Part shown: piece after piece, positions 1 to 52,800 of the stretch
Layout: each line of letters opens with the position of its first letter
How positions within the stretch are numbered: the stretch's first letter is position 1
Source: Bugula neritina
Taxonomy: Eukaryota; Bryozoa; Gymnolaemata; Cheilostomatida; Bugulidae
Assembly (NCBI GenBank): GCA_964035545.1
Contig: OZ037770.1
Span: 10,008,973-10,072,972, forward strand
Direction of reading: 5' to 3'
DNA length: 64,000 nucleotides
Notes under the pieces: generated by a model
Database searches by the model: none
What the model saw: the letters and a program-made list of their open reading frames with translations, nothing else
What the model was told of the DNA's origin: nothing
Translations under genes and position numbers: made by a program

Positions 1-651
1 TCTCTACAAACTTAGCCTACACAAAAGAAAAACAACTTGTAGAAAAACTAATATTTTACATTAGAAAAGCAAATACCATTATTACAAGTTGTCTTCTCGT
101 GTTATGAGATTCACAATTTAAACAATAAATAACAATCACAGAATGTTTTAAACTGTATAATTATTATACTCAATATAAATATAGGTTATACTTTAAGATT
201 TTATGGTAACTTCCATGTTGGAATAATATAACTTATGCACATAACTTTGTACTTCGTTTATATTCATTCCGTGTTATGTGTAGTGTGTATCACACGACAG
301 AAGACGCCGCAAAGAAATGTTTAGGTTGGGTTCCTTGCAATATTTCAATACACTCAGGTTACATTTAAATTACCAGGTCAGTTCTAACTATTCAACTGCT
401 TCACATATTACTTACAGGCCACCTTAGTTGTGAATATTAGCTATAAGCTACATGCTCACAAAAATAATATGTGGCTAAATTCTTCATCAACATGGCGAGA
501 AGGGGAGTTTTGAGACCCCCCCTACCTTAAGCAAATGATCTAGTATGAGACCGAAGCAACTGCATTACATTACTTCTTCCTTGTAATGAAAAACTATAAA
601 AAGTAAATTAACTAAAAAGTTAGTAATACAAATGATAGCCTCAGTGCCTAC
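1..651. other. Intron or 3' region of the left-edge gene; no exon recognised
   Basis: The donor at 651-650 (minus strand) shows that the gene continues to the left. I found no convincing exon in these bases; the next exon probably lies before the window. Confidence 0.5.
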
Positions 652-26000: not shown

Positions 26001-29000
26001 ATTTTTATTCCTATTACGTAATCTCAAATCACTAATTACAACATTTTAGCAATACTAAAGTGAAAAACAATTTTGCCTCCACTGGGAATCGAACCCTGCA
26101 AGCAAGTGTGCTACCATCACACCACGGAGGCCACTGGGTAAACTCAACACTACATCCCACCCAGTTCCCCGAACTCCACTGGCCTACCTACTACTCCTTC
26201 AGTCTTCAGGCTCTCCTGGCCTCTCCACTTCCTCGGAGTACTACTACTGCATTTTACTAAAGGCCCGAAATAGCTTGAAAAATAATTGCCCCCACTGGGA
26301 ATCGAACCCGAGACCTCCAGCTTGCAAGCAAGTGTGCTACCATTACACCACGGGGACACTGGGTAAACATAAATTAAGTGAGCTGACAAGTACCTCTAAC
26401 AAGTATGCACGCAGTTGCAATATGTACATGTATATGCATCCATCCTTTTTATATAAACCGAACCATTAGTAGAACCACTAGCGTGCTACAAAGTTTTTAA
26501 ACTGTGCAATAACCATCACATAAAAGACCACCTGAGAATGAGCCTTGAAAAAGATTATTTTTTTGACATACATTATTTTAGTTGCGGTCAGCAATAAATT
26601 GTATTTTAAGCCTCTGTTTCCATGCCCAGTTGATCTAACCTTTGATGATTACATGACGGCCTAAGAGTCCTACTAGTATAATTATATATTTTAGGGTAGA
26701 CAAGTAAATGCACAATGAATAGTGTGATATTTTTAAGAAGTGAATAGTCTAAAAATCATTACAGGAAAACAAATAAATGTAATCCTTGTATTAGTGATTG
26801 TTGTCCTTTACTAAAGTTGTGGCTAACACAATGCTGTACTTGGACAATAATTGCCAATCAAGGAAGTGGAAGCTTGAGAGCCTGGTTAGTGTCTCATAAC
26901 GAGAGCTGCTAACTTTGTCTGATCAGAAGCATTAGTGGTAGTGTTGGTAGTGCTGAGTTTACCCAGTAGTTTTTGTGGTGTAATGGTTAGTGTGCCTGCT
27001 TGTAAGGTGGGGGGGGGGGTTCTCAGGTTCGAAACTTAGTTGGAGCAAAAGTCTTATAATTAATTCTATAAAAACACATGCTCACTCACTCACGCAAGCA
27101 AGTTTATAGTCGCTATCCCTGTGAAAAACCCCTGATATTTAATTCTATAAATCAAAGTCTTATTGTAATGTCAAGTATCACTATAATTTGTTGATCATCT
27201 CTAAACAACATACCACGTGATAGTTCTAGTTAGAATGTTTAACTTGATTTGCCTCGATGCAGGACGTGACATACAAGGATGAGCATTACCACGAGAACTG
27301 CTTCCTCTGTGCCTGCTGCAACAAGACTCTGGCTAACACACAGTTCCTCACTCACGGCACCTCCCTGATATGCGAGAAATGCTATAACAGTGACTATGCA
27401 GAGACTTGTGATGTTTGTCGACTGTTATTTAAACACGGTAAGTGATGACAACTCCAAAACATGTACGACTTTTATAGAATAATGATTTATTTTCCTATTC
27501 CTGCTGATTTGATGAAAATATTTAAAACTTGAAATGCATTATGAATTGGAACTATACATTTCAATCATTCACAAATTCAAGCGTTGATTTTGCTGCGATG
27601 TATAGGAATGGAGAAGATTGAATATTCTGGGAGAAAATTTCATACAAACTGCTTTGTTTGCCTGAAATGTCACAAATGTATTGGACAGAACACCTTCATG
27701 CCAATGGGAGACAAGTTCATGTGCACAAACTGTTACAATGATAGCCATGCTTCTAAATGCGGAGGATGCGGGAAGGTGGGTGGTTCACAGGGGCCTCGTA
27801 TGCTGAAGTTTTGTTCTATACGTGAGACATGCTAAATCTGATTGCTTGATCACAGCTGCTGCAAGCAACGCTTTTCTAAGTCCAACTAGTAGTTCAAATA
27901 AATTAATTAAAAACTATTCACTAAACTGAATTAAGTTTGTTTAGCATGAGTTAGATGTCTTGAGTGTGCTTAAGGTGATTGTAGTGCATTAGCTACCAGT
28001 TGTAGTGGGTTTGGTGATGTGAAGCTACCTACGTACTACAGTCTGTAGTTTTATTGCTGAGATTGCTTATACTTTGAAAGAAGAGACACACCAGCCATAT
28101 TGTCCTGCATTCTGAAAGCTTACCGCATGCTGTTTGCAGATAATCTCCAAGTCGGGGATCAGGTTTGAAGGCTTGCTCTTTCACAAGGAGTGTTTTGTGT
28201 GCAGATCTTGCCGCACGTGCCTCGCAGGTGTTAAGTTTGCCGTGAGAGACGCCCATCCTTTCTGTACCGAGTGTTTTGCTAAGAAATTCTGCAAGAAATG
28301 TGAACTTTGCCTAAAACCAATTGCAGGTATGTTTATTATATTCAAGCATAAGAAGAATTGGATTTAGCTTAGGATAACAATTTCCCTGTAAACTTGCATA
28401 CATATTTTTCGCAAGTTTTTTATATCAAGTTATCTTGAAATCGATGCGTTGAACTTTTTTATGAAGTTCTACAGTTGTCTCAGTTGCATGTGTCTGAACT
28501 GCTTCAGGTGTAGTTTGGAATGAAATATTTGATTTAATTTTGAAAAGTAACGCTAGTAAAATAATGATGCAGTATGTGTACATGGCAAACAGTTTCGCTG
28601 AAGTTATATTAAAGAAAAATAACTGCTTTCTAAAGGCATGGTTTTTTAAATAGCATGTATTAGTTATTAATTTTATTCTATAAAAGGTTTGTTGGGGTAA
28701 ATCTGTACACAAGAAAACTAATTGTGCTGCAAGATCACAAAAAATTAACAAAACCAGTCAAATGCCACATCTTTATAACTTGATGATTTTTTAAAATGTC
28801 TTTGATTGCAGTAATCTGTATGCTATCTAATTATTTACATGGATAAGAGATGGTGTTATTTTGGCTCCGTTTTTGAATGTAACAATTGTTCATCTTTTAG
28901 GACTAGGTAGCAGTACCAAGTTTGTCACATTCGAAGGCAAACAGTGGCACTCCCAATGCTTCAGATGCTTTCAATGCACAAAGAATATTTCAGGCGAAGG

Positions 29001-29046
29001 CTTCTCTATAAAGAACTCTAAAATAGTCTGTGCTAGATGTGTGTGA
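23067..29046 (+). CDS. FHL2: Four-and-a-half LIM domains protein (FHL family)
   Basis: Five coding exons in phase: 23067-23219, 27263-27437, 27606-27775, 28140-28326 and 28901-29046 (TGA), giving 276 residues; human FHL2 has about 279. It starts with a half LIM zinc finger (CTSC...CLKC) followed by four full LIM domains with regular Cys/His ligands: CQKC...HENCFLCACC...CEKC; CDVC...HTNCFVCLKC...CTNC; CGGC...HKECFVCRSC...CTEC; CELC...HSQCFRCFQC...CARC. The RRKM-type spacing, 'YKDEHYHENCF' and the 'GLGSSTKFVTFEGKQWHSQC' start of LIM4 follow FHL2 closely. FHL proteins are zinc-binding scaffolds at actin structures, muscle Z-discs and in transcription complexes. The symbol marks the family; the FHL1/2/3 split is vertebrate, so strict orthology to FHL2 is not claimed. 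The ATG follows an acceptor at 23057, so a 5' non-coding exon is expected. Confidence 0.95.
24236..24325. repeat. Short tandem array, 31-32 bp unit in FHL intron 1
   Basis: Three copies of GTAAACCACTGCCCTGCAGC plus AAATGCAGRCA, the last one degenerate. Confidence 0.85.
26070..26365 (-). repeat. Two tRNA-like sequences in a dispersed repeat
   Basis: On the minus strand both copies (26073-26131 and 26284-26356) have an A-box-like TGGTGTRATGGTAGCAC and a B-box GGTTCGATTCCC. The right copy has a pairing acceptor (GTCCCCG with TGGGGGC) and D-stem, but its anticodon stem (CTTGC against CTGGA) does not pair. The left copy lacks about 13 bp before the B box. Both are preceded by GTTTACCCAGTG. They look like tRNA-derived repeats or pseudogenes, not working tRNA genes. 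Confidence 0.65.
26955..27060 (+). repeat. Third tRNA-like copy with G-run
   Basis: The plus strand carries the same flank (GCTGAGTTTACCCAGT), TGGTGTAATGGTTAGTGTGCC and B box GGTTCGAAAC, with a run of about 12 G (27008-27019) where the anticodon 3' side should be. Same family as 26070-26365. Confidence 0.6.
27075..27145 (-). mobile_element. 3' tail fragment of the tRNA-Thr SINE, reverse orientation
   Basis: Read on the minus strand it contains ATCAGGGGTTTTTCACAGGG and ATAGCGACTATAAACTTG, matching the tail of the copies at 14716, 39822 and 51302. Confidence 0.75.
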
Positions 29047-30351: not shown

Positions 30352-33300
30352 CTAGAGCATGACCTCTTCAAGGTCATCGTCGAAATCATCAATAGCCCGA
30401 ACTGTAGGCTTATTGTGAATAGTTGTGTTGTTAGCGCGTGGGCGGAGGGGAAGGACTTTATCATTAGAAACTGGTTTAGAGTTGCTTTCCCATGGAAACT
30501 CTGATCTATCTCCCTGAGCTGCTGGTTTAGGTTTTTGACTAGTTGCAAAAATATCATCGCTATCGTCAAACAATGATGGCTGCTTGCGTGTTTGGGAATC
30601 TCCAAAAATGTTATTTAGGGTACCAGTTTTCTTAGCCCCGCTCACTGACGAGTCCTTGACCTTCCAAGTGTTGGTGTCCTCAGCCTCTAGCCTCTGTCTC
30701 GTCTGCTTATCCTGAGAGCCGAATGACGTCGGATCATATCCTCCAAAGTCTAACGAGTCATCGTCGTCAAACAGCGAGGTTTTCTTCTTTCTTCTACCTT
30801 CCTCACCAAAGAGACTACTGTTTCTCGCACCAGTTTTATTTGCTGGAAGACCACGATACAAGTTTTCATCTGTTTGCCGGAAGCTATAGGAATAAAAAAA
30901 GTATCGTGAGAAACTTCATGACGCTAAAAGCAGTCAGATTTAAATTTGCAGCAAACAGGGAGAGGTGCTTCAGATATAAGCAAAGGGAACTTTGTTTAAA
31001 AGTACACAAACCTGCTTTGAAGAGCATAATCAAGGAATAAATACTTCATTAAAATAAAATGAGAGCTTTATAATAGAGTCTGACAAACCCAGAAGTGTTG
31101 CACCTTTATAACTTAATTAACCTACTAGCTACGCCATCACCAATATGCGGGGCAGTATCAAGTAGATGAATTGCATATATAATGGCAATGCCTTTTGATA
31201 ATCTGTTTGCATGTGTTGATAAATACGAAAAATGACAGACCAAAACAGCCGTAAACAAAAAGTTGCGACTTTCTGTCTACAGAAATAACTGTTTGGTCAA
31301 CAGTGAGGCGGATATTGTTTGCAATCCTCTATACTGTCACTTTTAATGAATACCATAGCCCAAGTAGAGGCAAATCAATAGAGTTGAAGAAGAATGATCT
31401 CACAGGGAAAATGCTTCGGTAGATTAGAAGCAGAGTTTTATTAAAACTTAAACCATAAAAATGTCTGACTAAATTCAACATTTGAAATAAACAAGGAGCA
31501 AGCTTACAATCACTATAAGAGGAGATAACTTCTAATACATAACTTAGATCAGTAATAGTAATGAGAAAACAAAAGGATTTTAATGTTAAAAAGAAAGAAT
31601 ACAACTCCTAATGAAGAGAAGAACTCACTTATAATCTTTGCCTCGCTCTGAACCTTCTCTATCATCACCAGAAGTGAGGAAAAAGTCTCCGTTGAATAGA
31701 CCTTTAGAAGAGCTTTCAACTGCCTGCGGTTTTGACTTTGCGTTAATTGAGGGCGGGGTAACAGAGGAGCCTGTGGTACAATCAGGTTATAGGGCTAAGA
31801 ACAATGCAATGTATACATTCGAATTGTTCTATAAGCAGCTGTAAGTTGGGGGTGACTGAGTACAGTAGTTTGCGGTTCTCAATTTGAAGTTGGGGGTTTC
31901 AATTTTCCCCCCAACTCCAAACTCAGGAACTTTAAACGTCTGCACTAAATCACCCCAGCTCAAAGCTGCTTATAGAAAAATCCCATACATTCAGGCATCT
32001 AAAAGTGTAGTATATGCATTAATATACCTGTATATAGGCTATGCATATTCATATTTATTTATTATATAATCTAACCGAAATCTATTTCTTTCATTTTCTG
32101 TAGCATCAAATCTTTCTTTTTTCTTTCTTCAGCTGCTTTAGAATCTCTTTCTAGCCTTTGTTTTTCTTGTTCTCTAGCAATACGGGCTCTTTCCTCAGCT
32201 TCCTAAAATTGCCATTGATTTTGGTTTATATAATAGAAGAAGCTATGAAGAACCATGTATAAAAGATATAAAACTACAGGTTGCATCTATGATTCTGAAG
32301 ATCAAATAAAATGAGAGAAATCTTTCGTCAAACAACGCCGCTCTAGTCTTGTACATGTTTTCTTGACTACAATGAATCATGCGTGGTCCAAGGAAACAGC
32401 CATAACTAGTAGAGCACATGTTTAGATGAGTCACATAACAATCAGCCAATAAGCATCCAGTATACAGAGTGTCTCTACTCCATTCAGACCACCCACAATA
32501 TTGATAAGCAGACTAATAAACTAAATAGATGTGGCATGGTCAAAGAAATGCAACTCTATACAAAATCAGTAGCTACGCTTACAATATTATTAAATTTTTC
32601 CGTTATTAGAATCACCATAAGCCAGTTCAATAAATGAATGTGATATAAATCATTAAAACCAATGACCGCAGTAGCATTAAGGAATCAGAAAATCAAAAAT
32701 TTTACACTAAAAACTTATTCTAAAACAAGATAATCACAAAGATAGCATAGGACTACATTAAGTGCATTTTCGCATAGACTGCTAACAAGATCTTTTCATA
32801 AGTGGAGAATTGGGCTGCCTTGTGCAGATTTCATGCAATTAAAATGCTAAGCAAACACAGTGAAAAGATTCCTGCGGGAATGATCTTATTGACTAAAAAC
32901 TATTTAGGGAGCCCACTTTTTGCATTTCCTTTTTTATGTTTTATTATTTACTTTTACATTCCAATCAATTGTGTATTATTGAGTGGTGTTTCAACATGGT
33001 GTAGGGCAGTTGAGCAATCAACAAATACAATTGGTCAATGTAGTTTTTTCTCCTGCTGACAACGTATTGTGTGTGGCAGGCAAATCCCGCAGTGGGTTTT
33101 ATGCATATATATATGGTTTCTTACTTAATGTGCTCTTAGACTTAGTGGGACTCATACAAAGATTCAGATACAGGTGTGTGCTTTAGCATGCAAGAGTGCA
33201 CAACTTAAAAGTGACTGATTGAAGAGGTGAAGCTTTTACTCCGAGTAAATGAATTACTCAGCACTAGCTACAAAGGAAACCAGGTGCACTATGGGTATTA

Positions 33301-36300
33301 AAACTGGTCCTGTCAATGCATTGGTTGAATTTACGATCAGAAGTAGTCATGGTGCAAAAAAAAACGACCATAAAAACAAATCAATAAACATGACCCTTAG
33401 ACACGTGCTTGCCACGAGTTTGAAATGGAAATTGAAGTATTGGGGTATATACAAAACTAGCAAATCATAATGAAATTCTGCTAAAAGCGGACAAGGTATG
33501 ATGACTGGGGGGACAACTTATAAGATTAACCACAAACTAACCTTTTGCTTGACTAATAAATCCTCTTCCTAAAAGACGGGAATTAATTAATACAATCTCT
33601 AGAAACCAACTATGTGATTGGTTAAAAGATTTTAAAAATGTTGGAGACTTATTTGATAATTCATCAAATGCTATAAAAATAAGTCATTGTTACAGCCTTT
33701 GCCCGCCACCCGCGCAGGCCCACGGCGGTGAAAGGTGACCATTGTAGCAGCATTTGATGAATTCTTAATTAAAATTCTATAAATAGCATTTGCTCCAACA
33801 TATTTTCATAAATTTCTAACCAATCACATGGTTACATGATTCAACAATGTAGTAACAAAGTGACCAGACGCTTCCTTGTAAATAAAGCCAATCCGATACA
33901 CATGTATATATCTGACATATAGCATTTACAATTATTGAACTATTTTCAGTCATAGCGACTATGTGCGTTTGTGCAACTGTTTTAATAAAAACCCATTTTT
34001 GCATAAACATAAGGTTTACAACAGCTTCTAAAGACCTACCCACCAAAGGAAATATTTTAAAACTCACTTTAAACTATTTATTTAAAGGCCATTATGGAAA
34101 AAAATTACGAAGTTCTACTGCTCAAAGTATTGACACAGTTCACAAAGTTCTACTACTGCTGAGATAATGTGAATGTTGTAATTAGCTAAGCTACTATATC
34201 AGGTATGTAGAGATGAAAAAGTACACAAGGAGGCAAGTAGAGACAGAAAGACAAACAGACAGACAAACAGACAGACACACAGACAGAAAGATAGACTGAC
34301 CTCTCTAAACTTTCTTTCTCGCTCTGCCACTTCTTTGGCTCGCTGCACCTCCTTTTCCTTTGCTTCTCTTTCTTCTCTCTGTTTCTCTAGATAATCTCTT
34401 TCATACCTATCTCTATCTTCCTTAGCCTGTGAAATAAAGTATATATGATAAAATTATAAATAAATATGCTAGTGAGAAATTTATACATGGAAGTAAAGAT
34501 GAGCTCACAATGAGAGAAGAGGCTGAAATGGTGTGACTCATAAGAAAGTCACAAAATGATTCAATCCATACAGTTTTACTACTCATGGCTATGACTCATA
34601 ACATCTCTTCAGTCACACAGCTCTACTACTCATACTAGCTGGCAACTCAGTCACACAGCTCTACTACTCATACTAGCTGGCAACTCAGTCACACAGCTCT
34701 ACTACTCATACTAACTGGCAACTCAATCACACAGTTTTACTACTCATACTAGTGACTCAGTTTGAATAGTTCTACTACTCAGCATCAAATCATAAACTAT
34801 TTACAAATTCAATCTCACCCTGCGATCTCGTTCTTCTTTCTCGCGCCTTTCTCGTGCCTCTTTCTCCCTTTGCTGTCTTTCTTCTTGCTCTTTTCTCCGT
34901 CTTTCTTCTTCTTGTTCTCTTTCTCTCGCCTCATCTTCCTCTCTTTGCCGACGCCTTTGTTCATCTGCTAACCTGTAAACCCCAGTGAACGTTATCATAT
35001 GTCCCAGTATCACAGCAATGGCAATAGGTTGGTACTAACATTTGACCTCTGATTGACTTAAACATCTGTTGACTTATCAAATTTTAAAGTTTAAAATTTC
35101 AAACAGAAAAGCTGAATAGGATACTTTGGTATTGTTATGTGGAAACAGCCAACTATTGTTTAAAATGAAAAAAAATCTTTGGATATTTACAAAAAAATGT
35201 CAACAACTGAGATAAGTTTTACTTTAAAAAGTGTTCAATGGCTGACTATAAACACATCTAGACACACAGCATTGCAACTGCAAGAAGAGGTGAATAAACC
35301 CATACTGTAAAAAACTGAGATTGAATTTACTGAGAAAAAGTGCAAGTAGTGGTAAAATTCCCTTTTGAAATAAAGAAACAAGTGTGAAAAGCTAAGGTGG
35401 ATGCCTGATATATGAAGGAAAATCATTAGGTGAAAAAAACATTGCTTGTGACAAAACTGAAGTAAAGCCCTATCTTTACACTAATGATAATGATTATATA
35501 ATACAGTGAGTCAAATTAAAATCACAAGAAATCCCATACAAAATATTTAGGTACCCACGGCTGAAAAGAAGAAACACACAACATGATTTTTATAAGAGAA
35601 GGCATCAAAAAGTTGGAATCAAAGTTGATGTATACAAAGTAATAGCTAAAAGTAAATAGATTGTTTATGTATATGTGTTATATATTGAAACACAAACTTA
35701 AACTACAGGAAAAGATTACATAAAAAATCTCATCAAATATAAAAATGGAATGATTCTATTGGAAGCCTGTGTTGAAATTTTTAGTGAAAGCTGCTTCTAG
35801 TGACATTTGGGAACTAAAGAAATAATTTTAACTAAATGTATTAAATCATATTTCAGCAAAACCTAGCACACCTTTAATATGGAAGTAGAGATTGACAAGT
35901 GTGTGTGGAAATGAATAGATCTCTGTGAAATATCTTTAAACGTAAATGAACTTGGTAGTTTTCAAAACAGAAGCAATTTTGCACAAAGGGGAACGTCTTA
36001 ATTTTAAAAAATTAGTTTTATTCTCTAACAGCTTTTCAGACGGACTGATTATGACATTGTGTTGAACAAAAATAAACTGAAATAAAATTATGAGTAACCT
36101 TGACCAACTATTCTTATAGACTAGAACTACAATATGAGTCACTATTGGTTACTGACAGTCACTATAACTCACTGTAATACTACTACAGCTACAATGCATG
36201 ATCACCATCACAATTACTGACAGTCACTATAACTCACTGACGTGACTATAGTTACAATATATGAGTCACTATTAGTTACTACAACTCACTATAAGTCACT

Positions 36301-39300
36301 GTAAACTGTACAGTGATGTAACTACAGGTATAATGTACACACATCACCAGCAAATAAAGAAGATAAAAGCAAGAATGGTGCCCAGAAGTTACCCCTGTGA
36401 AGCTTACCCGTTGTCTATCTCAGGTATTTCAGTCGTGAAGAATGACTTAGTCACTTCAGACTTAACAAAGGTGTCGTCCCGACTATATGCATGACAAATA
36501 TTAAACTTAGGCTACAATCTGCTAAGACAAACTAAATAGGCAGAAAGTGTGGAAAGCAAAACTTAATAAAAGCTGACAAAACTTTAATTTCGCTGATAAG
36601 AACTCCTAATTTAGAAATAGACATGTTACGTTTTCAAAACGTAACTAGAAATATTTTATATAACAAAAAAGTTAGTATGTTCGACCAGAAAACATCACAT
36701 AAATAAGAAAATTAAATTTAAATATAATACGTATACTGTTACAAGCTGATTTCACGAGCTATATTAGAGTTATCCTCTCTTAGCCAAGTATGAAATCAAG
36801 AGCAGATAAGTCTGAAATGCAATCAAGTAATGAACTTGAGCCATTCAAGGTAAGGTGTACCTTTTGTTAAAACTTCCTTCCAGAGAATCTTTAGTTACTG
36901 TAGCTTTTGGACCAGAAATCTGCTTCTGTTTATTTACAATGGCTTCCCACGAGTTTTCTTTCTCAAACTTAGGAGTGTCGGGTGGCTTAGGCTACAACAA
37001 AGTGAATGATCTGACTACTAGATATTAGACATTCAGAATATTTTATTTGAAAAGTCAAACTTTTGCTCATGCTTTGCAGCAAAACGAAAGCTGTAAATTT
37101 TCTAGACTGATAACAATAATTTTTAGTAAAGAAAAGTAAAAAATTTAAAAAAATAAAATTTTAACTTGATTGATGCCTGTGGTGAGTTAGGAGAGTACAG
37201 TTGATTCAAGTTAGTATCCCCTGTTTCTGGTGAGACTTGCAGCAACGCTATCACAAATTGTGATTGGGCAAACAAAAATATATACTTGCTTTATTTTTGA
37301 TCTGAGTGCACTAAACATTTGCCAATGGTCAACATTCATGGAGCATGCTCAGACCTTAGCAATAAGAAAAGTAACGGCCCGTGAAAAATAGGGCTGTATC
37401 TAAAAATACAAACCAAAACTGTCTGCTCAGCCATGATTTAAATCAAATTTTAAAAGCAGAAAATTAAGTGCCGAACGACTTTGCGAATTTTCCAGTTGCA
37501 AATTTTTCAACTTACAGTAATTGATTTGATTGGCTGGCTCTTATATTGTTCCGGTGATTGTGATTGGTTGTTTGCAGGTTCTACAGATTTTCTTGGAGTT
37601 TTATCTTTGATGGTGTCTAATGTAGGCTGTCTCTTTTGTCTCTACAAGAAATATGCACCTCCAATTAATTCGACAACAGAAAAAAGAAAAACTATAATTT
37701 AGAAATGTTGCAACTATATTATTTTAATTATTACCATGCAACTGCAATTAAAATTAAATTAATATTTGTTACAGTTGAGTCAAAAAAATGGCAAGCAGTT
37801 ACAAAAAGCTGGTGCAGAGAAAATGAAATTGCTAACAATTGCCTCTTCAGTGGTGAGTACTATGAGTATTCAGGGCACATAATTGAAGATATCAATGAAT
37901 ATATTAAATTACCTGTCCATGACTGAGGGAAGAACTAGAAGTTGTATGAACAGATTTGATTGGATTATCAGCCTGTTTGTTTGATCTGATTGGTGGAACA
38001 AGAGCAGAAGAATTGGGAGACTCAAAGGATTGCACAGCTAGCTACAAACACAGCGTTACCACACTTGCACAATACAAAGAAGCCAACAGAGTTTACTAGC
38101 ACAACCCACAACAATTAGTCTAAAGCCATTAGCCCTTTACATTATTTCTCTGTAAGTAAATGTATTGGCGACAAAACACATAGCACTAATTTAGCATAGT
38201 AAGAGGAAAAGAGCAAATTACGAGCATTTTATGAAATAAATAGGACCACTCTAGATTAAATGAAGAATTTAGAAAGTTTCACCTTCTAGCTAATTTGTAA
38301 GGCAGGTTAAAAGTGTTTCACAACATGAAAGTATAAAGCAAAGTTTGTATTTTTCTCAGAAGCTTACTTCTTTAGCTTTGGCTTTTTGCTCTTCTCTTCT
38401 CTTTTGCTCAAACTGCTTAATTCTCTGTCTGGGAGATATATCTGGAGACTTTGCAGGAGGTTGATATCGAGCTGGAGGTTCTAAGGCTGGTAAACTGGAT
38501 ACAGAACCTTTACGTTGAGCTAGAGCTATCCGGTTCTGATATATATTCCTCACCTCCAGCTCTTTCTCCCGATCCTAAAGAAGATTCAATGATTGATTTA
38601 TTACATATCACAGACATGAAAATATGTTGCGAAATTCAGTGTAAATACTGGCCTTAATAAGTAGGCATGAACAAATGAGAAAAAAAAGTTAGAACTCTGT
38701 AGGATTATTTAGAATAAAGTATCATTTAAAGTATTTACAAAGTGGCATAAAAGCTATCTCTACCCCAAGCTCCTCTATATTTTATGGTTCGATATCTTCG
38801 GTCATAACTTGACAACCTCTAAATAGTTTGAAATAAAAATTTAGAGTGAGCAAGGATAGACAACCCTATATATTCAAATCATATTGACAAACCCTTAGAT
38901 GTATTTTAGTGTACTCCAGTTCAGCCTGCAAAGTTTCTAATTCTAATTTAGTTGCTGCATGCTTCTTCATCTGAGAGAGAGTTTCTCGTCTGTGAGACTT
39001 CTCTAAGTTTTCTATGTGTCGTTCCAATTGCTACAAACAAATGAGATAACTCCTGATTACTCAGACTACAGTTTACTGATTACTAAGACTACAGTTTACT
39101 CAGTTTACTGATTACTAAGACTAGTATTCAAATTGCAACAAACATAGGAAATTACTCCTTGTTACTCGAACCAAAGCTTGAAAAAACCTTAAACTTTTGC
39201 ACATTTTATGTGTCAGCCTTTGTTCACAATGTTTTTGAATGTACCTAGTAAAGGAAGACAACTTTGAAACCTAAGTGTCCAGAAAAAGACAATGTAAAGG

Positions 39301-42300
39301 GTGAAAAACTGTTAAACTGACTGACTGAGTAAATGAGTGAATCTGTAATTAAACATGCATATTATCCAAAGTGGCGATACCAAAGTTTAGAGGCCTGTCA
39401 CTTGGAATTTATTGAATCATTAGAAAGCTGGCATCATGTTTCCTATGATATAATAACTTATTCTACAGAACATTAACTTTTTAGCACAACAAACATAACA
39501 TGACTAGTAAACTAAAATCACTTGGACAATAACTTTTACAACATGAATTCCATGGTATATCGCACCTGAACTCTGGCAGTGCGATCGGCCAGTTCGCTCT
39601 CTGATTTACCCAGCCGTTTGCTCAGCTCTTCTCTCTCTTCCAACTTTTTGTCGTCTGCAATGCCCTGCAACTTTTTGACCTTCCTTTGACTTCTAGCGAG
39701 CTCATCTTCTGCACTTTTCAACGATTTGTTGGCTCTATCTGTTTTGTCTCTCAATTTCCTATATTTAAGTATTGTTTAATTAACCAACTGCAGCATAGCA
39801 TCGACTAAAGCATTAGAAAACGGAGCAGTCGTGATCTAGGGGTTAGAGCGCTGGATTAGTAAACACGAGGTTGTGGGTTTGACCCCCGGTAAAGGTCATT
39901 GATGATGTTAGGAAGGGCATTCAGTCATAATTGCTTTTGTGCCCCATATAAATAAGTCCTTAGCCTACTCTAAAAAAATTCTTTCCGTTAGCGGTTCTCA
40001 CAGAGATAGTGACTATAAACTTGCGTGAGTTTTTTATAGATTAAATAGGAAAACCCATTAAAGTATTAAGTTCAGATTTGAAATGATAGTTTCATTTAAA
40101 TATTTTTTTCACATTAAATACATTTCACCAAAAGTCAATAATTAGATACGAGATTACATGACATAGAATTAGATTTGAGATTATATGACACAGAATTAGA
40201 TATGACATTATATGACACAGAATTAGATATGACATTATATGACACAGAATTAGATATGATATTATATGACACAGAATTAGATACGAGGTTATATGACACA
40301 GAATTAGATACAAGATTGTATGACACAAAATGCCATGAGTTTAACTGACCTGATTTGTTCCTTGAGGTTTCTAACTTCTTTGTTGTGAGACTCCATCATC
40401 TGCGGGAGTTCTCCCTCCTGATCTTGCAGACGATCTAATTGCTTGTTTTGCAGCAGATTGTCTCGCTTCAGCGCCTTGTTCTCTAGTCTAATATCATTCA
40501 ACTCTTTCATCAAAGTGTCTATTTCATTCTAAAACACAGCAAATGAAACAACTAAAAACACAAATGACAGCAGGTTGTAGACTTCAAACTTATAATAAAA
40601 TTTATAAATAATTATTATATTAATAAAGAAACAAACAAATAAGTAAAATTCGACAATCCTAGAATATAAATAGTGTTCTTTTAAAAGTTGTCTGTTTAAA
40701 CCAAAAGTAGCTGATGATAATGAGAAAAGTGTTGAAAAAATTCAAATGAATTTCAATCAGTAAACCCACTCGTAGTTCATTAATTTTCAATCTTCTAGCA
40801 GAAAGCATTCGTCTGGTGACCACATCATGAGCACCAGGAGGGCGAGGGGTGGTGGTAGCCGCGCCTCCTTTTTTCAAAGGCTTTTTCTTACCAAGGGCCT
40901 TAACTACAATAATTAAAATACATTTCAAACATCTTCAGAACGCATAACCTATAATATCATAGAGTTGAGTATATAGATTGAACAGTTTATAACTGCTTCA
41001 TATAAACTGCAGATAACACCATCCCATGGGAGTTTTGTTGCCAAGTATAAATAGCTGAGTAGGATGTTTGCGATGAAGAATTACCAACACATGTTATGCA
41101 TTAAGAGGTTAACAACACTATCAATTTTGCTTATTGACATAGCATAACTGTTATAAGCTGTTGGAAACATTAATATTGCATACAAAAGCATAAGCTTTAA
41201 GATAAGTTTAACTACAGTTGGCTAGCAAAATGAGAAGCCTAGTTCAACTACTGCGGGTCTAGAGAATCACCCGCATCCCATTTTGTATTTAACAAGTGCA
41301 TGATGCTTATTAAAAATTCATCAAATCTTTAATATTTCATAGAAATAAGATCTTAGACTATAAGGAGAATTGATCAAGTTTTACTTAGCTTAATTGAAAA
41401 GGCAAAACTATTCAACCATTTTACTACTTTAAACAAAATCAGTCTACTAACTGTCTTGTTTCTAATTTCTATAACTAATGAAGTCATTAAAGACTGTGAA
41501 AAATATTTCACAGAATCATATAAAATTAAATTTAAATTAAACCGATACAGGCATCATAAACAGAAGATAGAACTTTTAGCGAGGTTTAAAAGAGATGTAA
41601 TTTGTTGAACGGAAAGGTGTTCACTGAAAAAATTTTCAAATTTTTTTAATGTTGATTTAGCTAGCAATTAAACAATTAACATCCAATGCAGCTTTCATAA
41701 GCTAACAACATTAAAAAATGAATAACTGAGTATTGAAAATAAAAAGTGGGTTAAAACCATTTCACCCAGCTAATTGCAAGGCAAATGTTAGAGCCACAAC
41801 AAGAGTAACATAACTCCAACTTACATTTTGGGATAGTAACTTTAGATTTGACAACTGAAAGTATAGCAATTGGACTATTTAAATCTAGGAAAACATGATG
41901 AAAGTACATATAAGAGTTTTAAGGAACAAGTATTTACTGAGAGTTGAACTTAAAGCATTTGATCATTAAAGCAGGAGCACAGCTCTAATACTAGGTATGT
42001 TTCAGTTAGCCAACCCAGCAGCCCTTGAGAAAAAATATCATTTAATTTAAAACTTGGATTAAAATGTTTTAAAAAATTTAAAAAAGGTTGATAAACCTAG
42101 CTATAGTGCATAAATTTTATAAAAAAAAAATTAAATTAAGTTTTAAAATTCTAGAATTCTATTCTGTTTATTGAAGATGTCAATATGTTGTGCGGCTAAT
42201 CTAATTATCTACAAATTTGAGTGTTAACCTGCATCAAAATTGAAAAATGACAAAAAAATGGATATTACAAGCAACAAATAGAAGGAACATACCACCTTGC

Positions 42301-42800
42301 TGTTTAGGTTTAGCATAAGGACCCTTGGGAGGACTACGGCTCCTACTTCTACGCCTCCTACCACGACTGTCATCGCTGTGAAATGAGTCGCTATAGTAAG
42401 TGTCCGAGTACCGAGAATCACGGGATCGTGACCTTGTACGACCTTGAATGGCAAGAATGACTCATTATGAAACTAGTAATTGACAGGAAATGTTCAACAA
42501 TATATATGGTATGAATCCTACTACAAGCTGATATCGCCTAGGGTTAGGCTAATATTATGGATACATAACATTTATAATAAAAACTATTCACAAGGAAACT
42601 TACCTAATCATAGCTTTTACAGGGTAGATTTAAATCATGCAACTAAAGCAGTGTAGGTAAAAACAAGTAAACGATACACTTGATAATCTATATTAGAACT
42701 ATCTATTAGATAAAAAATTACCTCGAGATCTTGGTGTATATGGTGATCGAGTTCGTGACCTGGTTCTGCTGCTATAATATGAGGGACTCCTGGCAGGCAT
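30352..42800 (-). CDS. LCA5: Lebercilin (LCA5 family) ciliary coiled-coil protein
   Basis: Sixteen coding exons in phase: 42800-42722, 42442-42296, 40903-40770, 40528-40350, 39758-39566, 39030-38893, 38574-38368, 38041-37913, 37641-37516, 36991-36861, 36482-36408, 34972-34819, 34426-34301, 32202-32076, 31770-31629 and 30883-30352, giving 872 residues plus TAG. The lebercilin core is clear: VVTRRMLSARRLKINELRNE, LENKALKRDN, HNKEVRNLKEQIR, EEREELSKRL and EKELEVRNIYQNR match the conserved coiled coil. The C-terminal part keeps a long charged helix (exons 12-14), LQKMKEIDFG and an acidic end (DDFDDDLEEVML), as in vertebrate lebercilin. The first 60 residues are Arg/Ser-rich. Lebercilin acts at the ciliary base and axoneme and binds the intraflagellar-transport machinery in photoreceptors. 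Vertebrates also have LCA5L; this single gene could be pro-orthologous to both. The ATG follows an acceptor (TTTTAG), so a 5' non-coding exon exists. Confidence 0.95.
31827..31977. mobile_element. Foldback (MITE-like) element, copy 1, in a lebercilin intron
   Basis: About 150 bp that are nearly one inverted repeat. The left arm TTCTATAAGCAGCTGTAAGT...GGTGACTGAGTACAGTAG is mirrored on the right by ...ACTAAATCACCCCAGCTC...AGCTGCTTATAGAA. A homologous copy is at 55703-55839. No coding capacity. Confidence 0.85.
33604..33834. mobile_element. Second foldback element type with a GC-rich centre
   Basis: The left arm (TATGTGATTGGTTA, then AATGTTGGAG and AATTCATCAAATGCT) is mirrored at the right end (AGCATTTGATGAATT, CTCCAACAT, TAACCAATCACATG). 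The centre (about 33700-33735) is GC-rich (GCCCGCCACCCGCGCAGGCC) in otherwise AT-rich DNA. It lies in the lebercilin intron between 34301 and 32202 and has no coding capacity. Confidence 0.7.
34230..34292. repeat. (GACA)n microsatellite
   Basis: Runs of GACAGACAAACAGACAGACA type, ending about 10 bp downstream of the donor (exon end 34301) of a lebercilin exon. Confidence 0.85.
34545..34785. repeat. Minisatellite, unit about 45 bp (CACACAGCTCTACTACTCAT + ACTAGCTGGCAACTCAGT)
   Basis: About five copies; the three central ones are nearly identical. In the lebercilin intron between 34819 and 34426. Confidence 0.9.
36125..36345. repeat. ACTCACTATAAC low-complexity repeat
   Basis: Irregular recurrences of ACAGTCACTATAACTCACTG and relatives over about 200 bp in a lebercilin intron. 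Confidence 0.7.
39822..40035 (+). mobile_element. tRNA-Thr-derived SINE, copy 2
   Basis: The head has GGAGCAGTCGTGATCTAGGG, a TTAGTAA anticodon-like loop and B box GGTTTGACCCC. The body has GATGTTAGGAAGGGCATTCA and ATAATTGCTTTTGTGCCCC, and the tail GATAGTGACTATAAACTTGC then GTGAGTTTTTT. Intronic in lebercilin, opposite to the gene's direction. Confidence 0.85.
40132..40328. repeat. Minisatellite, 26-bp unit ending about 20 bp from a lebercilin donor
   Basis: About eight copies of a unit around ACACAGAATTAGATATGACATTATATG, ending about 20 bp from the donor that follows exon end 40350. The repeat makes artefactual open frames on the minus strand. Confidence 0.92.
40904..42295. other. Lebercilin intron; no additional gene seen
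   Basis: About 1.4 kb of AT-rich intron between the third and second coding exons. Nothing further recognised. Confidence 0.45.
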
Positions 42801-44054
42801 TTTATACTACTACTAAAACCAAACATTATTATTTATATGTATGCATACATCATTCAGGCTACATGATTCACAACAAAAAATATTTACTATTTTCAAAATA
42901 AAATTTAATCACGCATTAAATAATTGTTATGCTAGAAGATTTTCAGCCAAATAATTTGCTCTATGCATAACTTTCAAAAATGTGTTCACTAAGTTACATA
43001 ATAGTCCTAGGTCAACTGTTTTAGACATTTTATCCTAATTAGAAATCGAGATTATAAATAAGGTTGACAAGAAAACTAAGATAAAGTCCTGATATACAAT
43101 ATTATGAGCATAACTAAACCGACACTCGATTCACAGGAAAGTGACTTTAAAAATAAACAATGAGTATAACACCACAAGTTTCATTCCCAAATTGCTGGAA
43201 ATACAATACTCTTAACTTTTACTTCAATTACAACTAAAATATGAGTATGAGTATGAGTATCATATTTATTTTCATACCAATAGTTATAGTGATACTCATA
43301 CTGATATTGATAATAATAATGGTAATGATCCGTGATTGCCAAATTGAAGCTCAAGTGAAACTGAATATTTATATTGTAATTGAATTTGATGAACTGCATT
43401 TGTTCAAGTTGAATTTTATTTTGTAACATAATTATTAATAACCTTAACAGTTAATTTATTAGTTAAATCTATTATCATTATAATTCAATTTTAAATTTAT
43501 GCCTATGATAATGATTATCATTGTCAGTTAAAGTTGATGATTTAATCATTTATCAGATTGAGATTCAACTCTTAGAAAAATAACCTAGACTAAGACTTGG
43601 TGTATAGAAGGGTCTTTCAGTTACAAATACCAAAAAAAAATTTGAACGACACGATATTTTACTCCAAAACGAGTATATTTAAGAATAGCAATACAATGTC
43701 GGGAGATTTTTAAGTAATAAACCAACTAACAACGTGGTTTTCGCTGGAATGCACTCTCCCAGGAGTTCTCTTAGCAACGCGCCATTTGCAAATAAGCATC
43801 ATCATGTGATGTCATCGCAAGTGTCACAAATACAAAAATTGGTGACGTCTACGGAAATGTGTCTCTGTGACCTACAATCAATGTAATACTTAGTACGCGC
43901 TTGCTAACATAACGTGAAAGTAGGAAGTCACTAGTCATTCTTTTCTCTATTAGTTAGGATTTATGTTGTATGCTCATTTGGCTCATCTTCACACTTTATA
44001 GTCATCTTTCAATTATTGTCTTTTTAGCAATTTTAAATCCTTGTCACAGTCGCA
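42801..44054. promoter_or_regulatory. Divergent intergenic region (bidirectional promoter candidate)
   Basis: About 1.25 kb between the start codons of two head-to-head genes. The stretch at about 43735-43870 is less AT-rich than its surroundings and holds the X-box. A TTTTAG acceptor just before the lebercilin ATG and a pyrimidine-rich CTTTTTAG before the SH3BGR-like ATG suggest 5' non-coding exons on both sides. Confidence 0.55.
43765..43778. promoter_or_regulatory. RFX X-box motif in the divergent lebercilin / SH3BGR-like promoter
   Basis: GTTCTCTTAGCAAC fits the ciliary X-box pattern RYYNYY-N2-RRNRAC at every position. It lies 277 bp before the SH3BGR-like ATG and 965 bp before the lebercilin ATG. 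The latter has a 5' non-coding exon, so the motif may be close to the lebercilin transcription start. RFX factors drive ciliary genes through such sites. Function here is inferred; one match in about 1 kb can arise by chance at an appreciable rate. Confidence 0.5.
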
Positions 44055-47000
44055 ATGGGAATAAGAATATTCATTACATCCGTGTCTGCAAACTCAACGG
44101 TACGTAACACTTATTCACTAACATAAACAAGTATTAGTTACAACTTAAAGTTAAAGTGCACTTTGACTTACTCTTAGTTATTACAACTACTACTAGCACT
44201 AACAGTAACAGTGTAACACTAACAATAACCGTAATCAGCCATCAGTAATGTTGCACTAACAGCAACAGTGATGACTAACAGTAACTCTAAGACTAAGTCT
44301 AATGACTAATGAGTTAATCATAATGATTTGACCACTAATCCCATAACGGTAATTGCCAATTGCCATTGGTAATCATTAATGATTTGATTAATCATTTATT
44401 TTTAATGGTTATACTTATACTTATAGTATTATTGTCACTATCATTATGATTATCACCATCACTATGAGTATGACTATGACTATTAGTATTAGTATTAGTA
44501 TTACTATTAGTATCCTTACTGCATACTTACTATCATACTACTGCTACTGCTACTAGTACTACTTTTACTACTAATACTGCTATTAATACTACTGCTACTG
44601 CTACTACTACTGTTACTACTGCTATTGCTGCTGCTGGTGGTACTACTACCGCTGGTAGTAGTAGTATTAGTAGAGTAAACAGCTACGGGCTCACTGCATG
44701 TACTGCAACTTGAACTACTAGTAGTTGTAGTGGTAGTAGTAGTACTTAGTTACTGTTAGTATTAGTATTAATGCTAACTGCTATGACATTACTATGAGTT
44801 GTCGGTTCTAAATATTGCTATTTACTTATGTTAATACTATTAGTATTAGTATTAGTACTATTATTAGTATTGCTATTGCAGTATTAGTATTAGTTACTAT
44901 TAGTATTACTTTTTAGTCCCGGTACTAATAGGTCACAGTGCTACTTTACAGTCTACACTGACCTCTACTGTCAGAACAACTACTAAATTTCATATTTAAA
45001 CTAAACCGGAATGCAATATGAATAACTATGGGCATAACCAAGTCCAATGCAACTTGAACTACACTCCTAAGAACAAGTATATCAATATTATTATGAATAG
45101 GAATAACTCAGTATGAAATAAAAATGTACTCAGACCAGAAAAATTAGTATACATTATTTAAGTGATGATATTAGCAGCACTTAATATTTTTAATATTTGC
45201 TTGAAGTTGATTTAGCTGACTAGTGAAACTAAAAGTAACGGGTCACCAGTAATCAGTGATGAGTAATGAATAATTATCATTACGGTAATAGCTTTAGTTG
45301 CTCATTAATTAAGGCATTAATTGAACCATTAGATTTACATACTTTTAGCTGTAGTGGGCACATTGATGGTCAGTTATTGCCATTTGTGTATGCAATGATT
45401 AAAGCTATGAACCAGTGCAAACTTTTACAATGTTGAATTCTTGAAAGTTCAAAGGGGATATGTGTGGACAAAAACCTTTGTACCTGAGGCTGAAATTGCT
45501 TATAGTTCAAATTATACCTGGTAGTATCCGGTAACTAGTTGAATAAAGAAGCTTTTTGAGTCATCACCATAGTTGAAAATATTTGTTTTATAAAAATACT
45601 AACACCTTAAAGATCAGCAGTTACTACAAGTTACAGTAGCATTCTGTCAAGTTCCAATTTAAGCTACATTTGTCAGTATTTCAATAACCATGAAGTATGA
45701 ACATAATTTCAAATTTAACTTCCAACAGTGGCAGTATAACCACATAAGTTTACGACAGACTGGATTTAGTTTCACCTTTATTATACAAGTGTCAAATCCA
45801 GCAGACTAATTAATTCAAAACAGTGTTCGGTTTTTAACTTGTTCAGATATCATTTAAGAATGTCAACATCATCCATTTTGGTGCTGAGTAAAATTAATAT
45901 GATTAATCCTAATTTTAATTGTCAACTGTGTGTCTAAATAAAAGTCTAGCTTTTTTCTTATATATTCTATTACTAAAACTAAATTTCAACATCAAAAATT
46001 AACTAAGCTATGATAATTACCCCTATCACTTTATTTCCAAATAAGGGCATAACTGCTGTGTATTATCTGATTAGGATCACATTTGCTATTTGTGTACAAA
46101 GTACAGGTTGTGAGTAATGGTATATATTATTGTTCACACTCCTATAGTAGCAAGTACATTTCCATGGCTACAATAATGCTGTAACTATAAGTCATCACCT
46201 CAGTCAGTTTATAGTCATAGCCTATTGTTGATAGTAACCTTGTCTAAATGATCATTCTCAAACTTATCTTACATCTATCTTAGTATGATATCTTCCTATT
46301 AATTGGTAATTATGTTATCCAATATATTAGATAATGATGTCTATGTAATTACATCACTTCAGCGGTCATTATTTTTTGATAACTCTAGACCATTTGACTT
46401 TAGTCAGCATTTCCTTTCTGTGGACAGCTGACTTAGGTTGTATAGATCAAGCTGGTTGGTGTTTATGTTTTACACATGAACGCAATTGTAGACAATGTAG
46501 AGTGTTTAAAGCTCCAGCCTGCACAATCTCTCTAGGTTGTATATACATATATACATTAAAATAGTGATTTTGGTTGTAGTGAATTGTTCTTTAGTTTTAT
46601 TGGGTATAAGAATATACACTTGTTTTTTACTGCAACTCTTTCTTAGTTTTCCTTCAAAAGCAGTAAATTGGTTTCTTTTCATATATTTGAAGGTGAAGAA
46701 ATGTCAACAGCTAATTGTAGATGTCCTCACAGCAAAGAGTATTCCCTTTGAGCTGGTCGACATTTCGGCTCCTGAAAATGAAGAATTGAAGATGTTTATG
46801 AGAGAGAAGGCCAAGCCTAAGGAAGGCCAAGTCAACCCAATGCCTCCACAAATATTTTCCGATGACGAATATCTTGGGGTTAGTATTTAACATTGCCTAC
46901 TGCATCCACTATGATTTCCGTTTATGTCTTGGTGCTCGTTGTGGGAATTTTTAATTCCAAATTTTAAAATAATTTGCAAAAATCATACTTTTACTTCGAA

Positions 47001-47243
47001 TGGAATGTTCTTTTCAATTTTAAGAAATAGATTGTGATATTTCCTGTAATGGTTTGTAAGTAACAGCTTGAAGTTATTGTTGAATTGTTTTGGTTTTTCA
47101 TGTTGAATAAAATATCACTTGTCATTCAGGACTACCAGGCGTTTGACGAGGCAGTTGAAGACAACTGTCTGGACGTTTTCCTCCAACTGGCCTCGGCAAC
47201 CAAAACCTCTGAGGCTACAGTCACTCTCGGAGTAAGTTTTTAG
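44055..47243 (+). CDS. SH3BGRL: SH3BGR-like thioredoxin-fold protein
   Basis: Exons 44055-44099 (MGIRIFITSVSANST), 46693-46878 and 47130-47231 join in phase 0. The sequence follows SH3BGRL proteins: a first beta strand, KKCQQLIVDVLTAKSIPFEL, VDISAPENEELKMFMREKAK, the conserved MPPQIFSDDEYLGDYQAFDE, and DNCLDVFLQLAS. The family has a glutaredoxin-like fold without the CXXC active site and a Pro-rich PPQIF ligand motif. After codon 111 there is a consensus donor (GTAAGT at 47232). If it is not used, the frame reads VSF and stops at TAG, giving a 114-residue protein, the same length as human SH3BGRL. If it is used, a short terminal exon such as 48380-48418 (VTLNTCKQSDMQ) could end the protein. 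Which member (SH3BGR, SH3BGRL, L2, L3) it matches cannot be separated here. Confidence 0.88.
44150..44960. repeat. ACT/AGT-type low-complexity DNA in intron 1
   Basis: Several hundred bases made largely of ACTA, TAGT, ATTAGT, ACTAC and TGCTACTGCT words with no fixed period. Same composition as 5640-6480 and the right window edge. Confidence 0.85.
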
Positions 47244-49859: not shown

Positions 49860-52800
49860 TCATGACTTATCTCTATTCAGACACTGAATAAACTCTTCGA
49901 GCTTGTCTTGAATATGTCTGACTCGCTCTACAACAGGAAATGAAGTCATTGCAGCAGCCGTTTATTACTAATGTTGGAAATTCCGAAATGATTCATGGTT
50001 TATCAATTTTCTTAGAAATATTACTAGATTAAAACATTTACAATTAAAACATTTACTATTAACACATACAATCATGGAAATTAAGAAATGATTTATCTAA
50101 TTATTTTAGAAATATTATTTTAGAGTCTAGACTATTACAAATTCTACCATCATTGTTGAAATCAAAACAAAATATTTCAAGGAATCAGACTAATTAGAAC
50201 TGATATCTTACTTAAATCTTCAGCTAGCTTTACTCTACGCCCGGATATGAGCTGCTCGAGCTTGACTTTATCTTCTCCAAAATCATCCAACACCTCCTTC
50301 ATAATTCTCTCTAGTCGACGAGCTGTGTGAATATTGAGATATGGAGCTGGGCATGACATACAAAACTCTTACTTGCTTAAGGTCTACACCCCTGTGAGAA
50401 CCTCTGGTGGTAAGGGTTATGATAATATCAAGGAGTGCAGACTTCAAATATTTAGGATGTATTTGTAATGTCAGGAAGAGAATTAGATCACAATTTCTCC
50501 TGTGCCACAGTACACACAGTCTTTAGCTCAGTTGAAAAAACCCTTTCCATCCGAGTATAAAATCCAACAACCACAAGCAGTGCATGGTACAATTACCCAA
50601 GGAAAGGATCAGAAAATATAAATTTATCAGCTAGAGACTAAATTTGTGCTCCTAATATCGATGGAAAGCCTGAGAAATGTATAAGATAATAAATTACATA
50701 ATGTGATACCAGCATACATGTGGTAAGAGTATAACTAGTCAATGTATGATCTCCATTCCAAACATATTACTAATACAAAATCAATGTAGACTTCAAAAGA
50801 GATAATTTTCCTATAACTTTCCAGATGGCTGCAGCCATAGCCACAATCTCAGTTATACAACATTAAATTCAACAGACGACTCCTTTAGTAGCCTTAGTTC
50901 ATCTCATATTCCAGGGCTGTCGGAGGGGGCCTACAGCTACCCGCACATGCTGTCCCCGATTTGTTTTATTCAAGATTTAATTCTTAGCTTCAATAAAGCT
51001 AAACTAACAACCTTAACTAGATGAGAGAAAACTAACATGCAAATTTCATGTCAATGTAACTTCAACAAGCCATGAGAAGTTGTTACGTCTAAACAGACGG
51101 CAGAGGATGAGAAAAGAGTTTACCTTCATGGTTGGTGACTTGCTGCCTGAGAGCATTGCTGGTAGTCTGCATCATCTGCTGCACCCTCCAGAATAAGAGA
51201 ACATCCTTACAGTCCAGCTAGAAGGAAACAGAAGATATCATTACGTTGGTTCAGTAGTAAAGTAGCCCTCAATATTGTTGTAAGAGTAGTATTATCACTG
51301 CAGAGCAGCCGTGGTCTGCCTAGTAAGCACAAAGTCATGGGTTTGAGCCCCGACAAAGACCATTAGTGATGTTAGGAAAAGCATCCAGTCATAATTGCTC
51401 CTGTGCCTCATTTAAATACGTCCTTGGCCCACTTCATAAAAAAACCCATTCCATCAGGGGGTTCTCACAGAGATGGCGACTATAAACCTGTGTTAGTAGT
51501 ATTAATACCACTACACTGCAAAATTTTCCTGGCCTTGATTTAGTAAATACTGCACACAATTCCTATTAACAACAGTGCTGTAATCACACTGACCTAATTA
51601 CCAGCAACTACATGTTAGGAGAAACATCTTCACTTCCACAATACAAACGGCTGACATGTTCTATCTGCTACGACGGATGTGTCATGTGTAGGGAACAGAG
51701 AAGGAAAGTCCAACTGGACACACATCAGTGCACATGTCACCCACATAGATGACACTGCAAGCAAGGTGTGTGTTACACAGTACGTACCCCGCATTGCTCT
51801 GGAGTCAGACCTTTCTGGTAGAAACCGAAAGCCTTTCTGCACATCTTAGCCGTGGTTAGTGAATGATTGAGAAACTGTTTCCTGTATACTTGGTACCAAG
51901 TCTCTCTGATCTGCAGGAAGTCACGCAATTACATGAAGTCACACAACTATATGAAGTCACACAACTATATTATGAAGTCACACAATTACATGAAGTCACA
52001 CAACTATATGAAGTCACACAATTACATGAAGTCACACAACTATAAGGCAAGATACGGATAGTACTCGGTCGGCATGTGCAGAACATTTTATCAACACAAG
52101 GCAATTCATTTCAAGCTGATTACCTGACTATGTTATGCAAGCAGTTGATCTTTAAAAAATATGCACATCAATGATTCTAAACTTGATTGATAAAATCCAT
52201 TTTGCTCATCTAAAAATTTCTGGAACTACTCCAACAAAACCTAGACACTCTCCAAATGATATTGTGATACAGATTTTTAAAAATTCTTTGAAAACTTTAA
52301 AACTTATTTGTGGTAAATAAAATGTTTATCTAATTACAGATTCCAAGATTAATTATACAAAAACATATTTTGGCTTATTATTGCAGGTTTTAGACTAAGT
52401 TCCATTACTGCCAATTAGAGTACAACTCACTATTGTTAGAAGGCGGTACTAACGTTAGAAGGCGGTACTAATGGGAGAAGGCGGTACTAATACTCACTAG
52501 ATCATCAGACGCCTCGACTTTTTGCATCTGCAGATTTTTCCTAATAGCTGTCATCTCATCGGCAGAGAGCTGCGACTTTCTAACCTTTTCATGTCCGAGA
52601 AGCTTTTCTAGCTCATGTTTTATTGCAAGGGTACTGTTTTGTTCAGGAGTTCGTGACTTCCACGACGTCCACTGCGTGGCCCATCCTGGTCCAGTCATCT
52701 CATTTAATTTCTCATCAGCTGGAAAACAATATTTATTGGCGGCATAACTTTACAATTTCAGCAAACTTATCCATTCAAATACCATGAAAACTCAATTTAC

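Follow-up and report, generated by a model that had tools for sequence, protein, structure and literature searches.

In the bryozoan Bugula neritina, a lebercilin gene and a gene of the SH3BGR family stand as divergent neighbours in the window analysed here (a stretch of 64,000 nucleotides), and the same pairing occurs a second time in the genome, on another contig and with a common exon structure. Lebercilin is a coiled-coil protein of cilia; members of the SH3BGR family are small and have a thioredoxin fold. Gene trees and signs of linkage in other animals suggest that the two genes probably formed one old divergent pair, which bryozoans and vertebrates would each have duplicated separately as a unit. 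The single ancestral pair and its independent copying are supported by these results, not proven.

The divergent pair in the window

The gene models of both pairs are predictions drawn by eye from the genomic sequence. In the window, which lies on contig C6, the lebercilin gene is on the minus strand, with the first base of its start codon at 42800 and a stop ending at 30352. Its hand-built model has 17 coding exons and 882 aa, keeps the frame throughout and has GT-AG borders in 16 of 16 introns; the 27-nt exon at 33542-33568 is the least certain of the 17. The hand-built model of the SH3BGR-family gene occupies 44055-47243 of the plus strand, with 3 exons and a predicted protein of ~114 residues. 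Positions 47231/47232 in its third exon can also be read as a donor, and the orthologue of Watersipora subatra (P0003) ends near there. Both models agree with the coordinates 30352..47243 and with the arrangement described in the sequence-only reading, a minus-strand lebercilin and a plus-strand SH3BGR-like gene about 1.25 kb apart, since 1,254 bp separate the two start codons.

30352..42800, minus strand: lebercilin coding span (hand-built model)
42722-42800, 42293-42442, 40770-40903, 40350-40528, 39566-39758, 38893-39030, minus strand: lebercilin exons 1-6
38368-38574, 37913-38041, 37516-37641, 36861-36991, 36408-36482, 34819-34972, minus strand: lebercilin exons 7-12
34301-34426, 33542-33568, 32076-32202, 31629-31770, 30352-30883, minus strand: lebercilin exons 13-17
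38893..40903, minus strand: exons of the Lebercilin coiled-coil domain (PF15619; residues 105-297, extending into exon 38368-38574)
30352..30400, minus strand: lebercilin C-terminal tail FDDDLEEVML (compared by eye)
42801..44054, no strand: gap between the lebercilin and SH3BGR start codons, 1,254 bp
43551..43950, no strand: CpG-rich peak on the SH3BGR side of the gap (CpG observed/expected 1.07, 14 CpG)
44055..44099, plus strand: SH3BGR exon 1, with start codon (hand-built model)
46693..46878, plus strand: SH3BGR exon 2, 186 nt (hand-built model; genome family search)
47130..47243, plus strand: SH3BGR exon 3, with TAG stop at 47241-47243 (hand-built model)

The two family identities were borne out by Pfam. 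Residues 1-360 of the 882 of the lebercilin, used as query, matched Lebercilin PF15619 (E 4.5e-44, 150.8 bits for a cut-off of 34.3) over 193 of 193 profile positions, and 111 of the ~114 residues of the second protein matched SH3BGR PF04908 (E 1.1e-30; cut-off 21 bits). The C-terminal tail resembles, by eye, the tails DDDLEEVVL, DDEIEEVIL and EDEIEEVVL of Watersipora, mollusc and frog lebercilins. The SH3BGR protein of the window is 75% identical to a metagenome protein, 70% to the 'adapter SH3BGRL-like' P0003 of W. subatra, which like B. neritina is a cheilostome bryozoan, and 45% to human SH3BGRL2; its solved structural relatives are SH3BGRL, L2 and L3.

The window holds other features. Beside the 3' end of the lebercilin gene are LIM-domain exons of an FHL-like gene (27545-29046, plus strand), two stretches of which match PF00412. 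Exons of a mitochondrial dynamin-like gene (OPA1-like by eye) extend over ~50000-62000 of the minus strand; one of the three stretches searched there matched Dynamin_N (E 5e-08), another matched a different family below cut-off and the third had no match. Armadillo-repeat (PF00514, E 2.8e-4) and ubiquitin-like (PF00240, E 5.4e-10) stretches lie close together at 568-3564 on the minus strand and perhaps belong to one gene. A 210-residue open frame at 4142-4771 (plus strand) is retroelement-endonuclease-like, with an Exo_endo_phos2 score of 20.7 bits, below cut-off. Finally, a tRNA match of 39.7 bits (26287-26357, minus strand) falls within a stretch resembling a dispersed repeat, and is thus possibly a tRNA-derived short element.

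A second pair on contig C3

Our searches of the whole genome (215.8 Mb, 295 contigs) returned few members of either family. For lebercilin they gave the two coiled-coil exons of the window and one exon on contig C3; for SH3BGR there were three places, one in the window, another on C3 and a weak third on C2. On C3 the matches are separated by 4.4 kb and belong to a second, diverged lebercilin/SH3BGR pair, again head to head (C3:21858279-21867804), with 1,755 bp between start codons. The pair is thus not single-copy, as had been proposed from the window alone.

C3:21862231 to 21867804, plus strand: lebercilin, exons of 733, 113, 179, 193, 138 and 240 nt (model of the first six exons)
C3:21860425-21860475, 21859808-21859993, 21858279-21858356, minus strand: SH3BGR exons (hand-built model)
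C3:21856531-21856587, minus strand: possible fourth SH3BGR exon (a guess)

Both C3 genes match the same profiles as their counterparts in the window (PF15619, E 3.4e-21 and 76.1 bits; PF04908, E 2.7e-29, cut-off 21 bits), and the SH3BGR protein shares 98% identity with the B. neritina protein EB796_022733 (P0008) across 85% of the query. Four exons have identical lengths and the same frame in the two pairs: the 186-nt exon of SH3BGR and three consecutive lebercilin exons of 179, 193 and 138 nt. A second pair with this common exon structure therefore points to copying of the pair as a unit. It also makes it very improbable that the genes became neighbours by chance, once in bryozoans and again in vertebrates, since finding the same two families head to head twice in a genome is more than chance would give. 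We estimate at about 1 in 100,000 the probability that a gene landing at random in a genome of 215.8 Mb comes to lie within 1.8 kb and correctly oriented, and in Watersipora the two genes are on sequence of equal size, which also argues against independent encounters.

When 90 kb of sequence surrounding the C3 pair were compared with 144 kb surrounding the C6 pair (ORFs of at least 35 aa, E<=1e-3), the matches were two SH3BGR exons (2 and 3) and a single lebercilin exon. We rejected duplication of a wider block, the other flank matches being short, repeat-like or low-complexity by eye; two of the short ones are of unassigned type (C3:21878295 with C6:10036779, 30 aa; C3:21875179 with C6:10064666, 35 aa).

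We found no further members in the genome. The C3 lebercilin, used as query on the whole genome, gave 6 places (5 of its own exons on C3 and 1 on C6) and no further lebercilin. The weak place on C2 (C2:29290424) scores 31.1 bits with SH3BGR, above cut-off, but 47.5 bits with Glutaredoxin, which makes it more probably a glutaredoxin-like gene than a third SH3BGR gene; the whole-genome search gave no lebercilin match on C2. No SH3BGRL3-type gene was found in the genome, an SH3BGRL3-like query giving those three SH3BGR places again. In viral contigs, 168 stretches fitted the pattern of SH3BGR relatives and 0 were confirmed.

Gene trees and linkage in other animals

When was the pair copied? The lebercilin tree of whole proteins (20 rows) placed the C3 gene with the window gene and Watersipora (support 98/96). 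It was superseded by a tree of the domain only (203 columns, 17 rows), in which this grouping was unchanged (95/94). Within it, the window lebercilin joins the lebercilin-like protein of Watersipora (97/91 with whole proteins, 95/87 with the domain). The SH3BGR tree (36 rows) likewise places the C3 gene with bryozoan sequences (98/93), although bryozoans are the sole protostomes in it and it carries a long-branch warning. We therefore favour a scenario in which lebercilin and SH3BGR formed one divergent pair before bryozoans and vertebrates parted, and in which a single copying event in the bryozoan line brought the whole pair to another chromosome. The C6 copy would have remained near the ancestral proteins while the C3 copy diverged fast, and vertebrates would have copied the pair independently, giving LCA5/SH3BGRL2 and LCA5L/SH3BGR.

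The vertebrate side of the trees fits this scenario. The window lebercilin falls in the tree with mollusc and vertebrate lebercilins, and vertebrate LCA5 and LCA5L group together (100/97 for 9 rows of whole proteins; 92/82 for 8 rows of the domain), the pattern to be expected had a single pair preceded the duplication in vertebrates. The hypothesis that the C3 lebercilin is an orthologue of LCA5L, set up after the first lebercilin tree had been seen, was rejected (AU p=0.0025, with 2 LCA5L rows).

The main rival is a single older duplication: an early animal would have had two pairs, both of them kept in bryozoans, with the C3 type lost from vertebrates and other animals. A position of C3 outside all other animals is but weakly rejected for lebercilin (p=0.042), and is not rejected for SH3BGR (p=0.079). 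The SH3BGR proteins of C3 and C6 have 41% identity overall, and are thus no closer to each other than the C6 protein is to human SH3BGRL2. The branch of the C3 lebercilin is very long (2.0-2.7 changes per column) and its highest identity among the tree rows is with the mussel Dreissena (31-33%), above bryozoans, both of which count against grouping C3 with bryozoans. A lebercilin group of C6, Watersipora and molluscs without C3 was not rejected (p=0.054), and the C3 SH3BGR placed with SH3BGRL3 gave p=0.078. Yet the best trees of both genes group C3 with bryozoans, and no C3-type lebercilin of another phylum is among the 36 proteins listed (judged by name, and by tree for 18). We thus regard the older duplication as unlikely, and bryozoan copying as the better reading.

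Within bryozoans, a group of C3 and C6 without Watersipora was not rejected either (lebercilin p=0.108, SH3BGR p=0.133). Both Bugula SH3BGR genes, and the metagenome proteins P0001 and P0002, have two residues after ENE that are absent from Watersipora P0003. This insertion pattern would agree with the C3 copy having arisen after the lineages of Bugula and Watersipora separated, on which the trees are undecided (p=0.133). No C3-type SH3BGR of Watersipora was found among the matches listed (120 of 2,379 proteins).

Linkage in other animals is indirect. The SH3BGR and lebercilin genes of W. subatra are each on sequence of 46,061,466 bp, an equality of size that indicates linkage indirectly. In the eel Synaphobranchus kaupii, the lebercilin SKAU_G00185390 has a locus tag near that of SKAU_G00185410, a gene of the SH3BGR family, and both are on 85,591,107 bp. 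In Xenopus tropicalis the listed SH3BGRL and lebercilin are on sequences of different size. Indirect signs of linkage were thus found in two of the three named species common to both protein lists, among the matches listed. In the SH3BGR tree, SKAU_G00185410 of the eel falls with SH3BGRL3 instead of SH3BGRL2 (eel entries P0005 and P0150); perhaps the fourth vertebrate SH3BGR copy also kept its lebercilin neighbour in eels. The linkage proposed to predate vertebrates accordingly gains from the grouping of LCA5 with LCA5L and from these indirect signs in Watersipora and the eel, whereas the part of the proposal that saw one pair in this genome did not stand.

We take the human LCA5/SH3BGRL2 and LCA5L/SH3BGR pairs to be head to head, with the 6q genes much further apart than those of the bryozoan pair. 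In line with linkage in man, the excerpt of PMC9276112 describes small 6q14.1 duplications that include LCA5 and SH3BGRL2 in six of eight cases and LCA5 alone in two of eight. The excerpt of PMC4593198 places the human paralogue SH3BGRL at Xq21.1, with BRWD3 and HMGN5, and that of PMC10188112 has Igsf5 adjoining Sh3bgr in the Get1/Brwd1 region of gar. In Bugula we noted a BRWD/PHIP-like stretch, HDMPNIHDFLVLRQFYD..., at C3:32367049-32367177 (L027), whose BRWD_AD score of 35.6 bits falls short of the cut-off (40). It is 10.5 Mb from the second pair on C3 and not on C6; by length, the chance of falling on the same contig is ~15%.

The gap, shared control and known systems

Why would the two genes stay together? 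A break between them might harm one or both, and control elements serving one or both genes may sit in the gap or in the introns of the neighbour. The alternative is that the pair is a passive relic: neighbours by descent, copied in an ordinary segmental duplication of the block, with no shared control. The contents of the gap lean towards the latter. Nothing gene-like was found in the window gap (42801..44054), where ORFs of at least 40 aa from ATG were just of 45, 61 and 82 aa and low-complexity-looking, nor any Rfam RNA at gathering score. A comparison of the C6 and C3 gaps gave nothing conserved except simple repeats.

Candidate shared switches fared no better. The window gap has 3 degenerate X-boxes where 1.68 are expected, two of which are one palindromic site (43765-43778), and the C3 gap has 1 where 2.08 are expected; the strict RFX motif was found 0 times in each of the two gaps, and the best RFX match was equalled by 18% (C6) and 30% (C3) of 60 shuffles. 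We thus rejected an X-box/RFX motif as shared switch, the counts not being above chance in either gap. The CpG-rich peak of the window is at the 99.1 percentile for observed/expected and at the 96.3 for CpG number (4,666 windows of 400 bp), and the C3 gap has a peak at 21860801-21861200 (99.8 percentile for observed/expected), likewise on the SH3BGR side. We do not regard the peak as establishing a shared promoter: it is present in both gaps, yet there are 29 such clusters in 234 kb, or ~1 per 8 kb. For introns in the 5' UTR that would move the lebercilin start near the SH3BGR start, the splice scan of the gaps gave candidate sites no better than many others and left the first exons unplaced.

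The shared control suggested by the sequence-only reading therefore found no backing in the gaps, and we put its probability at somewhat under one half. The passive relic comes close to an even chance while falling a little short of it. The many duplications of bryozoan genomes described in the excerpt of PMC13326412 are in its favour. Against it, both pairs remained tight (1.25 and 1.75 kb) while their proteins diverged to ~30-50% identity and nothing further that could be recognised stayed common to their flanks. The extensive rearrangement of bryozoan genomes, described in the same excerpt, also argues against it, and the keeping of the pairing despite this rearrangement is therefore more notable. 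We consider it doubtful, judging from sequence, that the two genes might be an obligate regulatory unit of animals, a block copied whole at least twice independently, in which SH3BGR would be a partner of the ciliary programme co-expressed in ciliated cells.

Old gene pairs matter as a way of getting at control that cannot be broken. Here LCA5, a blindness gene, is joined to the small protein SH3BGR, and the two Bugula pairs are a natural replicate in addition to those of vertebrates. Should shared control be what has kept the pairs, SH3BGR proteins would be candidates for a function in ciliated cells.

Overall, the feature is probably an old conserved neighbour pair, which is of a known kind. 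As in other cases of ancient microsynteny in animals, its members would be long-kept neighbours that are divergent and separated by a small gap; Bugula differs in having the pair twice in one invertebrate genome, copied, according to the best trees, independently of vertebrates. Among the matches listed, covering open-access titles and the starts of abstracts, no paper on the lebercilin/SH3BGR pairing was found, though one may already be in print. What seems new is the presence of the pair twice in Bugula, the second pair having most probably arisen through independent copying of the entire unit. Bidirectional promoters offer another likeness, in their head-to-head genes, short gap and CpG-rich peak, but the start codons in Bugula are 1.25 and 1.75 kb apart, above the 1 kb that is usual between transcription starts. 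The closest known systems are the vertebrate pairs LCA5/SH3BGRL2 (6q14.1) and LCA5L/SH3BGR (21q22.2), which, like the bryozoan ones, have the same two families as near neighbours. In the excerpt of PMC12779367, LCA5L and SH3BGR share the human band 21q22.2 with BRWD1, HMGN1 and GET1, whereas the BRWD-like domain of Bugula is 10.5 Mb off on C3. In the trees, bryozoan and mollusc lebercilins are a single lineage outside the LCA5/LCA5L duplication, and the second bryozoan pair differs from the second vertebrate one in not being an orthologue of LCA5L (p=0.0025).
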